From Gordonia asplenii (GTDB lineage: Bacteria > Actinomycetota > Actinomycetes > Mycobacteriales > Mycobacteriaceae), in NCBI RefSeq assembly GCF_012933505.1, contig NZ_JABBNB010000001.1, positions 434,001-498,000 of the forward strand: a stretch of DNA of 64,000 bases, in the 5' to 3' direction. Positions 22,453 through 47,303 of this stretch are shown here, one piece after another. Every line of letters begins with the position of its first letter. Position 1 is the stretch's first letter. Both the position numbers and the translations under genes were made by a program. Below the pieces are notes generated by a model, which saw only the letters and a list, made by a program, of their open reading frames with translations, had not been told where the DNA came from and ran no database searches.

Positions 22453-23220
22453 ATGTCACAACCCGACGCGGGCACCATCATTCTGTTCGGCGGCCGCAGC
22501 GAGATCGGCGTCGCGCTGGCAGCTCGACTGGCAGCGGGCCGTCGAGTGGTGCTGGCGGCCCGACGTCCCGACGACTTGGCCGCCGAGCGCGCGATCGTCC
22601 TCGCCGCGGGCGCGCGCGACGTGACGGCCGTCGCCTTCGACGCCGACGACACCGCATCGCATCCCGCGCTCGTCGAACAACTGACCGCCGACTACGGCCC
22701 GGTCGAGGCCGCGATCGTCGCCTTCGGCATTCTCGGCGACGCGGCGAAGTCGGAGACCGACGTCGCACACGCGCTGCAGATCGCGCAGACCGATTACGTG
22801 GCACAGGTCAGCATTCTCACGCTGCTGGCCAACAGTCTGCGCAAACAGACCATGCGCTCGACGCTGATCGTCTTCTCGTCGATCGCCGGCGCGCGCGTCC
22901 GGCGAGCCAACTACGTCTACGGCTCCACCAAGGCCGGCCTCGACGGCTTCGCCAGCGGATTGTCGGATGCGTTGCACCACACCAAGGTTCGCGTGCTGCT
23001 CGCGCGGCCCGGGTTCGTCATCGGCGCGATGACCGCCGACCTGATGGCCACCGGCGTGAAGCCGGCCCCGATGAGCGTCACCGCCGACGCCGTCGCCGAC
23101 GCCGTGGCGCGCGCCTACCGCAGTGGTCGGCGAGAAGTGTGGGTGCCGTGGGCGATACGCCCGACGATCTTCGTGTTCCGCCTGCTGCCACGCGCGATCT
23201 GGCGCCGGCTGCCGAGGTGA
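22453..23220 (+). CDS. SDR oxidoreductase (DprE2-like)
   Basis: The 255-residue short-chain dehydrogenase has an atypical glycine motif (FGGRSEIG, about residues 12-19) and catalytic FSSIAG...YVYGSTKAGLDGF with Tyr and Lys in YxxxK spacing. Sequence style, the C-terminal hydrophobic tail (IRPTIFVFRLLPRAIWRRLPR region) and the modified glycine motif resemble DprE2, the decaprenylphosphoryl-2-keto-ribose reductase of arabinan synthesis. Its partner DprE1 is not nearby, so it may be a paralogue. Its stop overlaps the cobL start (GTGA). Confidence 0.72.
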   Translation: MSQPDAGTIILFGGRSEIGVALAARLAAGRRVVLAARRPDDLAAERAIVLAAGARDVTAVAFDADDTASHPALVEQLTADYGPVEAAIVAFGILGDAAKSETDVAHALQIAQTDYVAQVSILTLLANSLRKQTMRSTLIVFSSIAGARVRRANYVYGSTKAGLDGFASGLSDALHHTKVRVLLARPGFVIGAMTADLMATGVKPAPMSVTADAVADAVARAYRSGRREVWVPWAIRPTIFVFRLLPRAIWRRLPR

Positions 23221-24668
23221 GCGCGGTCCGCTTCGTCGTCGTCGGCATCGGAGCCGACGGCTGGGAAGGCCTGACGCGCGCCGCGCAGAACGAATTGGCC
23301 GGCGCGACCACGATCCTCGGTTCGCCCCGGCAACTGGCGATGCTCGACGGCCACGTATCGGCGACAATCGTGCCGTGGCGCTCACCGATGAACGAGCACC
23401 TGGACGAGCTGGCCCCGCGCTCGTCGGGCGAGGAAGGCAGCTCGGAAGTTCGGGCCCTGCGCTCCCCGGGCGAGGAAGTTACCGGCTCCCCGAGTGCCGA
23501 AGCGAGCGTGCGAGTTCGGGACCTCCGCACCCCGAGTGCCGAAGCGAGCTCGCGTGTTCCGGACCTCCGCTCCCCGAGTGCCGAAGCGAGCGTGCGAGTT
23601 CGGGCCCTCCGCTCCCCGAGTGCCGAAGCGAGCTTGCGAGCTTCGGTGTATCGAGGGGCCGGCGACCCAACCCACCCCACGCACATCCTCGCCTCGGGCG
23701 ACCCGATGTTCCACGGTGTCGGGGCGTCGATCATCGCCCGCGTCGGCGCCGACGCGGTCCGGGTGATCCCGGCCGTCTCCAGCGCCAGCCTCGCCGCCGC
23801 CCGTCTCGGCTGGGATCTCGCACGGACCCAGGTGGTGTCCCTGGTGACCGCGTCGCCGTCGACGATCCTCGCGCACGCGTCCGGCGGCACCCGCCTGCTC
23901 GTCCTGTCGCGCGACGCACGCACGCCGTCGAATATTGCGGAACTACTGTGCGACAACCACTTCGGCGCGAGCTCGATGACCGTCCTGGAGCAGCTCGGCG
24001 GCCCGGCGGAACGGATCAGGTCCGACCGCGCCGACGTCTGGAAAGCCCCCGACGTCGACCCGCTGAACATCGTCGCCCTGCAATTGCGCGGACCCAAGCG
24101 GATCGCCACCCCCGGCCTCGACGACACCGCCTACGATCACGACGGCCAGCTGACCAAGAGGGTCGTCCGGGCGCTCACCGTGAGCGCGCTGGCGCCGAGC
24201 GACGGACAGCTGCTCTGGGACGTCGGCGCAGGCTCGGGCAGCGTCGGCATCGAGTGGCTGCGGGTCGAGCGATCAAGTCGCGCAATCGCTTTCGAGACGG
24301 TGACGACCCGGGCCGGGCGAATCACCGGCAATGCCGCGCGACACGGGGTGGCCGACCGCTTGACGATCGTCGGCGCGGCGCCGGCCGCCTTCTCGAAGGC
24401 GCCGGACCCCGACACGGTGTTCGTCGGCGGCGGACTCGACCGCACACTCTTCGACGCCGCGTGGGCGCGTCTGCGGCCGGGTGGACGACTCGTCGTCAAC
24501 GCGGTCACCGTCGAGAACCAGACCCTGCTCGCGACCCTGTTCGCCGAGTTCGGCGGAACGATGACCAGGCTCGGCATCGAACAAGCTGGGCCGCTGGGGA
24601 CGATGACGACGTGGCGGCCGTTGCTACCGATTGTGCAATGGGTGGTTGAGAAGGGGAGTGGCGAGTGA
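23217..24668 (+). CDS. cobL: Precorrin-6Y C5,15-methyltransferase with an internal repeat insertion
   Basis: The 483-residue protein combines a CobE-like SAM methyltransferase domain (VRFVVVGIGADGWEGL at the start, ASGDPMFHGVG near residue 160) with a C-terminal CbiT-type domain (DVGAGSGSVGIEW near residue 340). It methylates C5 and C15 and decarboxylates precorrin-6Y in aerobic corrin synthesis. Residues about 62-150 are an extra Arg/Ser/Glu-rich stretch with four 14-residue repeats (PSAEASVRVRALRS type), inserted in frame between two core strands. The start is GTG in a four-base overlap with the SDR gene. Confidence 0.93.
   Translation: MSAVRFVVVGIGADGWEGLTRAAQNELAGATTILGSPRQLAMLDGHVSATIVPWRSPMNEHLDELAPRSSGEEGSSEVRALRSPGEEVTGSPSAEASVRVRDLRTPSAEASSRVPDLRSPSAEASVRVRALRSPSAEASLRASVYRGAGDPTHPTHILASGDPMFHGVGASIIARVGADAVRVIPAVSSASLAAARLGWDLARTQVVSLVTASPSTILAHASGGTRLLVLSRDARTPSNIAELLCDNHFGASSMTVLEQLGGPAERIRSDRADVWKAPDVDPLNIVALQLRGPKRIATPGLDDTAYDHDGQLTKRVVRALTVSALAPSDGQLLWDVGAGSGSVGIEWLRVERSSRAIAFETVTTRAGRITGNAARHGVADRLTIVGAAPAAFSKAPDPDTVFVGGGLDRTLFDAAWARLRPGGRLVVNAVTVENQTLLATLFAEFGGTMTRLGIEQAGPLGTMTTWRPLLPIVQWVVEKGSGE
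23488..23668 (+). repeat. In-frame 42-bp tandem array ending in a palindromic REP unit inside cobL
   Basis: CCCCGAGTGCCGAAGCGAGC starts at 23488, and units recur exactly every 42 bases at 23530, 23572 and 23614, with variation between them. The last unit continues into GAGCTTCGGTGTATCGAGGGG, making a hairpin-capable element (23614-23668) that closely matches 46990-47044. Degenerate related units extend left to about 23415. The period is a multiple of three, so the cobL frame is kept. Confidence 0.93.
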
Positions 24669-39693: not shown

Positions 39694-40016
39694 GTGGGCG
39701 CGAGAATGGCTGTGTTCGCTCGACCGGGGTCCACGGTGGTAGGTCTCCTGGGCTGGTTGAGCCTGGTTTCACCGGCCGAAGCGTCCCTCTGCTGGTTGAG
39801 CCTGGTCGAGCGCCGTGCTGAGCGAGGCGCTAGCCGAGTCGAAGTAGCGCTACCCGAGGCCGTGTCGAAACCATGTCGGCGCAACCGATTTCGTCGGGGG
39901 TCGGGTTCGCTGAGGTGGTTGCGTGGTTTCGACTCGCTGCGCTCGCTCAACCAGCGGGAATAGCTCGCTCAACCAGCGGGAATAGCTCGCTCAACCAGCG
40001 AGAGTAGTTGGCAGTG
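39694..40016. repeat. Intergenic repeat cluster with a 22-bp tandem array
   Basis: No gene is seen. Three 22-bp units of the form GCTCGCTCAACCAGCGGGAA plus two bases run at 39941-40006, the last one diverged. Oppositely oriented partial copies (CTGGTTGAGC) occur near 39753 and 39790, and GTTTCGAC/GTCGAAAC motifs flank them, so the segment can fold into hairpins. It is a REP-like mosaic between two convergent genes. Confidence 0.85.
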
Positions 40017-46988: not shown

Positions 46989-47040
46989 TCCCCGAGTGCC
47001 GAAGCGAGGAACGAGCTTCGGTGTAACGAGGGGCTGGTGA
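46989..47040 (+). repeat. REP-like palindromic element, copy A
   Basis: The 52-base unit begins TCCCCGAGTGCCGAAGCGAG and contains CCGAAGC/GCTTCGG and CCCC/GGGG complementary pairs, so each copy folds into a hairpin. It matches the last repeat unit in cobL and is the exact reverse complement of copy B. Confidence 0.93.
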
Positions 47041-47251
47041 CCCGACGACGCCGCCCTCCGACGGCGGTAGTCGATTCGCTACTGCGGTAACCATTTCCCG
47101 CGACGGTGGTTACCCAAGTGTTGGGGGTTGCCGCAGTGGCCGGTCAAATAGCGCGGTGCCGACGGGTTACCGCAGTGCACGCTGGGGCCACGACTAGCGA
47201 TGCTTCGATATGGCCGCGGGGCGCGTCGGGGGTCGGGTTGGGTTCTTCGTC

Positions 47252-47303
47252 TCACCAGCCCCTCGTTACACCGAAGCTCGTTCCTCGCTTCGGCACTCGG
47301 GGA
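47252..47303 (-). repeat. REP-like palindromic element, copy B
   Basis: This is the exact reverse complement of 46989-47040. It ends nine bases before the stop of the DHA2 exporter gene and could act as its terminator or mRNA 3' stabiliser. Confidence 0.93.

Follow-up and report, generated by a model that had tools for sequence, protein, structure and literature searches.

A dispersed hairpin repeat lies in frame within a variable loop of CobL in Gordonia asplenii

In the cobL gene of Gordonia asplenii, we identified an in-frame insert made of tandem 42-bp units and ending with a full copy of a hairpin-forming repeat that is dispersed in the genome. The gene belongs to the window analysed here, a stretch of 64,000 nucleotides (contig NZ_JABBNB010000001.1, positions 434,001 to 498,000) whose own numbering is used below. 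Judged on sequence, our results establish a dispersed family, covariation within its hairpin, in-frame inserts in cobL and in two other genes, and the absence of such inserts from CobL and LysR-type homologues. We consider it very probable that a lineage-specific hairpin repeat, of REP or RPE type, entered a variable loop of CobL, that the array grew there in multiples of three, and that the enzyme tolerates it. The features in and around cobL are as follows.

23217..24668, + strand: cobL, predicted CbiE-CbiT fusion (precorrin-6Y C5,15-methyltransferase), from the ORF, CbiE and CbiT profiles above cut-off, TP_methylase and an alignment with 37 relatives
23413..23678, + strand: inserted region, edges approximate, frame open, about 81 extra residues relative to the commonest CobL loop, from the matches of relatives and from loop lengths
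23415..23484, + strand: degenerate units, older and estimated by eye at about 42 and 24 bp (direct repeat family D1)
23485..23646, + strand: clear 42-bp tandem array, 3.8 copies (TRF; spacings 42, 42 and 42)
23613..23658, + strand: complete hairpin element at the end of the array, with CCCC/GGGG as outer arms and CCGAAGC/GCTTCGG as inner stem (RNA fold; pattern shared with the 207 matches in the genome)
23649..23651, + strand: TAT codon in place of the canonical TAA, which would be a stop in the cobL frame (variant counts)
46990..47033, + strand: intergenic element copy (sequence match)
47259..47302, - strand: second intergenic copy, inverted, the pair lying between two convergent ORFs

First, the array is regular and open. 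TRF describes 23485-23646 as 3.8 copies of a 42-bp period with 89% matches and no indels, and a direct-repeat search gives 87-92% identity between units in this register. Family D1, which starts at 23411 and includes the degenerate units, has spacings of 66, 42 and 42 with 63-71% identity. With up to 3 mismatches, GAGTGCCGAAGCGAGC occurs at 7 sites in the window, 4 of them perfect and 42 bp apart, and none of 100 shuffles gave 7 sites. Read in the cobL frame, the array contains no stop through about 260 bp. A preliminary description of this DNA had counted four 42-bp units in frame; the frame holds, and the four are only the clear part, being preceded by degenerate units. Its identification of the last unit as a complete copy of the element at 46990-47033 and, inverted, at 47259-47302 is borne out. 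By contrast, its view of the whole array as palindromic applies to the last unit. Indeed, the RNA fold of 23610-23662 reaches -26.2 kcal/mol (z -2.51), whereas folding of the three internal units does not surpass that of shuffles (z +0.33, +0.94 and +0.65). The same is true of the whole array (z -0.53), and we therefore claim no large RNA structure for it. A scan of window positions 20000-50000 against Rfam (E up to 0.1) gave no match at the cobL array or at 46990-47302; its one match, elsewhere, was below the gathering score.

At the scale of the genome, perfect hairpins of the form GAGTG-stem-loop-stem-TGTA number 233, against 1 in a direct-repeat control. Their stem is mainly CCGAAGC (195), with a shortened form in 12 and a changed but still paired stem in 26 (e.g. 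ACCGC, CCGACGC). The outer arms are complementary in 181 of 205 hairpins and fall into five pair types: CCCC/GGGG (162), CATC/GATG (10), CGTC/GACG (4), CACC/GGTG (3) and CGCC/GGCG (2). They are not complementary in the other 24, ten of which are of one TGCT/AGTA type. Complementarity holds in 19 of the 43 non-canonical arm pairs; 2000 shuffles gave 4.3 on average and never more than 12. These counts are not independent events, since the copies are related by descent. By these pairing counts the hairpin bases covary, pairing being preserved while the sequence shifts. A second hairpin, with stem ACCGC and an identical loop, is present in 12 copies (e.g. C24:1513 and C24:1705); in the copies inspected, it lies within the tail of the first element, the two making a double hairpin.

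The element is abundant in this genome and nearly absent elsewhere. Its core and tail are found in 200 exact copies (reversed control, 0), and a relaxed pattern gives 207 matches in the 6.64 Mb. Across a sample of 396 further genomes of the order, the relaxed pattern had no match, in an exact-core search that would miss diverged relatives of the element. Among the 58 further Gordonia genomes searched, a single one has core and tail together, in one copy, evidently that of G. effusa; likewise, a search of 36 named genomes gave one copy, in G. effusa and at almost the same position, and none in the other 35. This copy adjoins a short array (30 bp x 3.1), so that the layout of array plus hairpin is common to G. 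effusa, and it is flanked by CGTC/GACG. Since only one copy is present in the closest relative found, the burst of the element falls in this Gordonia lineage. The repeat had been described as mobile and RPE-like within an enzyme gene: a dispersed palindrome does lie there in frame, and its spread would follow from copy number, 207 against 1.

Copies also accumulate where the assembly stops. We analysed 202 of the 207 copies, in 126 clusters, sampling degenerate copies without an intact core only near intact ones, and 37 of the 202 lie less than 1 kb from a contig end, against 8 expected if they were uniform. The repeats thus seem to break the draft assembly, and the genome probably contains more copies than were counted. 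At some contig ends (e.g. C24, C41, C47, C56), copies are found within larger arrays of about 145-190 bp. Separately, at 39941-40007 of the window, a 22-bp unit present three times contains GCTCAACCAGCGG, a 13-mer seen 37 times in the stretches examined; this unit possibly represents a second dispersed repeat family.

Most copies are situated between genes. Among the 103 classified clusters outside called genes, 68 are between convergent genes, 29 between genes of the same direction and 6 between divergent ones, whereas the gene pairs of the window itself number 12, 31 and 12, respectively. These counts rely on our own codon-usage caller, trained on 26 window ORFs, and omit 39 of the 202 copies, which have no called gene on one side and lie within none. 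The element thus shows a preference for convergent and same-direction pairs and is a REP in the broad sense, a high-copy, short, imperfect and mostly intergenic palindrome. Between genes, if it acts at all, it would most likely do so as a two-way 3′-end hairpin, in termination or mRNA stabilisation. Its 80 arrays have locus-specific unit spacings of 24-74 bp; of 183 spacings in total, 69 are divisible by 3.

While the preliminary description gave cobL only, this gene is not the sole carrier. With coding-type codon use on both sides as a guide, three of the 126 clusters are clearly intragenic, those of cobL and of two further genes.

L069:1408-2511 (= G000:C43:56907-58010): LysR-type regulator, in-frame element within the substrate-binding domain, which is matched as two stretches
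L203 / G000:C24, about 145530-145820: NRPS, six in-frame units of 48 bp, placed between the carrier and the condensation domain

The LysR-type regulator has 59-62 extra residues relative to 10 aligned homologues (10 of 11 loci, L251 being outside the motif filter), and its two halves adjoin, 0-18 bp apart, in at least 16 of 24 relatives searched within the genus. In the NRPS, the carrier motif and the condensation motif lie 161 residues apart, compared with 70 for the other pair of this kind found in the same frame. An in-frame palindrome in several unrelated genes, a trait of RPEs, is thus seen in cobL, the LysR-type regulator and the NRPS. Three other loci with open frames (C59:28935-29021, C58:61173 and C63:47029) appear intergenic or upstream and were not counted; nor was C64:28778, at the extreme N-end of an ORF that is MutS-like by eye; this copy probably precedes the true start.

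In each of the three intragenic arrays, the period is a multiple of 3 (42 in cobL, 48 in the NRPS, 42 in the LysR-type gene). Spacings that are all multiples of three characterise 3/3 of them against 16/77 other arrays (Fisher p 0.012; post hoc, n=3, the 16/77 being counted by eye). Moreover, the canonical element in its CTTGC-loop form leaves five of six frames open, the closed one being the cobL frame, where TAA is read. The tail is TGTAA in 170 of 202 copies and TGTAT in 23, and the copy in cobL has TGTAT. That its TAT avoids the stop fits the survival of frame-compatible insertions only, in a single instance whose prior probability was about 11%. Both tests were chosen after the loci were seen. 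The selection for frame put forward in the preliminary description is consistent with these post hoc patterns, to the extent that three genes allow.

We can propose the following course of events. A hairpin-forming, mostly intergenic repeat, often with an array on its 5′ side, would be copied to new sites by some machinery and would have inserted in the loop that precedes the ASGDPM motif, in the CbiE domain. Local duplication would have extended the cobL array in multiples of three, and only frame-compatible, stop-free insertions would survive. The insert would be translated, the array being read as a polar loop rich in Ser, Ala, Arg and Glu that CobL tolerates, and the enzyme would still work. 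Growth of the arrays by slippage or recombination is likely given their homogeneous local periods. No empty site with a target-site duplication was found, the relatives being too distant (the closest CobL proteins found are 68-70% identical, with G. effusa at 70% over the C-terminal part), so that we infer, rather than observe, insertion as opposed to growth from a small seed. As regards MITEs, the outer arms are inverted here, and no relative is near enough to reveal a target-site duplication.

The array could instead have reached cobL by gene conversion or recombination between repeats, without transposition. This reading, which we find doubtful, is compatible with most of our preferred explanation and differs from it only in the mode of arrival. 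Similar 42-bp arrays exist elsewhere (e.g. C43:61541 and C49:112707), and the translated cobL insert matches them at 61-64%. Furthermore, the Y1 transposase profile PF01797, found in 5 of 14 control genomes, has no match in this draft genome; such a gene may have been missed by the draft, or lost. Recombination nonetheless requires prior homology in cobL, and no intact element was found in the genomes of the relatives searched, save for the single copy of G. effusa.

The site itself is a variable loop. Counting from the W that precedes SPM to the M of SGDPM, we obtained 111 residues for the present CobL loop, compared with 27-67 at 96 other loci. Across the 97 loci, which include our own and some species twice, 83 loops have 27-32 residues, 13 have 35-67, and 30 is the commonest length. 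An insert of this size is thus absent from the homologues, as an alignment was expected to reveal if the repeat was not a standing domain of the enzyme; the 85-90 added residues first announced come down to a still large net gain of about 81 over the commonest loop. Accordingly placed, the matches of CobL relatives mostly stop at query residues ~87-100 (119 in the Gordonia species G030) and restart at ~167-183. The insert contains 18 Ser, 13 Ala and 13 Arg among 89 residues, with a mean hydropathy of -0.7, a composition that suggests a disordered loop.

Other Gordonia species have expanded the same loop on their own. In G030 (locus L039) it carries a separate tandem growth of three 36-bp units, and in another species DPDST-like repeats. 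The 26-base core of the G030 unit, with up to 3 mismatches, has no match elsewhere in that genome; a second palindromic repeat targeting this loop was thus considered for G030 and rejected, the core being confined to it. As the loop varies naturally and undergoes local tandem growth in other Gordonia, it can be seen as a permissive site that need not be critical for the structure, and tolerance is the best reading of the cobL insert. These same observations, with 13 of 97 loops at 35-67 residues and units in G030 that lack genomic counterparts, would suit a loop expanded by slippage of its own sequence that merely resembles the dispersed repeat. We regard this as improbable: the last cobL unit is a full element with hairpin and tail, one of 207 matches, and hence not a product of slippage, and two more genes contain the element. 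Slippage is largely refuted for the terminal unit; after insertion, it is likely to have contributed to the growth of the internal units.

The gene that received the insert appears to be real and intact, as far as a draft assembly of 131 contigs shows. Its likely start is the GTG at 23217, which overlaps the TGA stop of the preceding ORF, itself short-chain-dehydrogenase-like from our reading of the sequence. The 483 codons include neither stop nor frameshift, cobM and cobK follow downstream with profile matches above cut-off, and no second full cobL match was found in the genome among the 25 of 94 candidates scored. The protein keeps 66/66 columns that are invariant in 37 relatives (counted against the relatives alone) and 112 of the 115 that are conserved in at least 90% of them. 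By eye, most differences between the cobL units change amino acids, so that the units bear no sign of selection on residues; in the NRPS units, 4 of 6 variable sites look silent. The non-silent differences in cobL could point to a decaying pseudogene with a neutral insert, which the open frame, the profile matches, the downstream cobM and cobK and the fully retained invariant columns make very improbable. Least probable of all is a misjoin of the repeat within cobL: the draft does break at these repeats, but the units are imperfect and distinguishable in a frame open over ~260 bp with coding-type codon use on both sides, a misjoin would seldom preserve the frame and bring a stop-free variant, and the LysR-type regulator and the NRPS show the same feature.

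How does this element relate to known repeats? REPIN/RAYT systems consist of high-copy hairpins, some with inverted neighbours. High copy and inverted neighbours are also seen here, but the latter stand at varied distances (~107-270 bp in the pairs inspected) and our search yielded no RAYT candidate. MIRU of Mycobacterium and BOX of Streptococcus are modular intergenic repeats with variable tandem units, which the present element resembles in this description. Closer in behaviour are the RPEs, dispersed palindromes lying in frame in unrelated protein genes to which they add residues; they measure about 150 bp, and nearly half of them are in ORFs (PMC10969869). The likeness lies in a dispersed palindrome found in frame in unrelated genes. 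The present hairpin differs by its size of ~46 bp, the tandem array that is often beside it, its actinobacterial host, and its clear presence in genes in only 3 of 126 clusters.

REPs within ORFs have also been reported in several species, including Thauera, O. terrae and R. conorii, and intragenic REP clusters encode 43-82 residues in Thauera and R. conorii (PMC3733652, main text). Like these GTAG/CGTC REPs, as that text presents them, our elements are short hairpins situated mostly between convergent or same-direction genes, with some in frame within genes. In contrast to them, most stems here have no tag and the Y1 transposase was not found. Indeed, a search for GTAG or CGTC within 10 nt of the stem in 202 copies yielded 10 matches (CGTC left 7, GTAG right 2, CGTC right 1). 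A RAYT-driven REP is thus unsupported, with PF01797 absent from the genome and tags mostly absent. A remote link to tagged REPs may nevertheless exist, given the CGTC/GACG arms of 4 of 205 hairpins and the flanks of the G. effusa copy.

The kind of phenomenon is therefore already known, as REPs in frame have been published for bacteria other than Rickettsia (PMC3733652, main text), and the novelty claimed at first for actinobacteria has to be narrowed to three aspects, namely an actinobacterium as host, a hairpin without tags and the arrangement in arrays, which look new within the literature searched. That main text makes no mention of Gordonia, Actinobacteria, Rhodococcus or Mycobacterium, and in the available part of an actinobacterial paper (PMC3848588), REPs are named only in the reference list. 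Among the papers listed in searches of open-licence literature, no title or opening of an abstract described such elements in Gordonia or other actinobacteria.

Palindromes that double as protein sequence have been described for Rickettsia and some other bacteria (PMC10969869, PMC3733652), and they raise the question of how proteins absorb them. In Gordonia, the many insert-free homologues of cobL, that of G. effusa included, and of the LysR-type gene, together with a naturally variable loop, would allow tolerance, selection for frame and the growth of arrays to be tested simply. On a more speculative and tentative note, an untagged, non-RAYT actinobacterial class of protein-coding palindromes might have multiplied explosively in one Gordonia lineage, where enzymes and regulators would be gaining loops built of repeats by frame-compatible insertion and growth in codon multiples. 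If this were true, such repeat-built loops may serve as tunable linkers.
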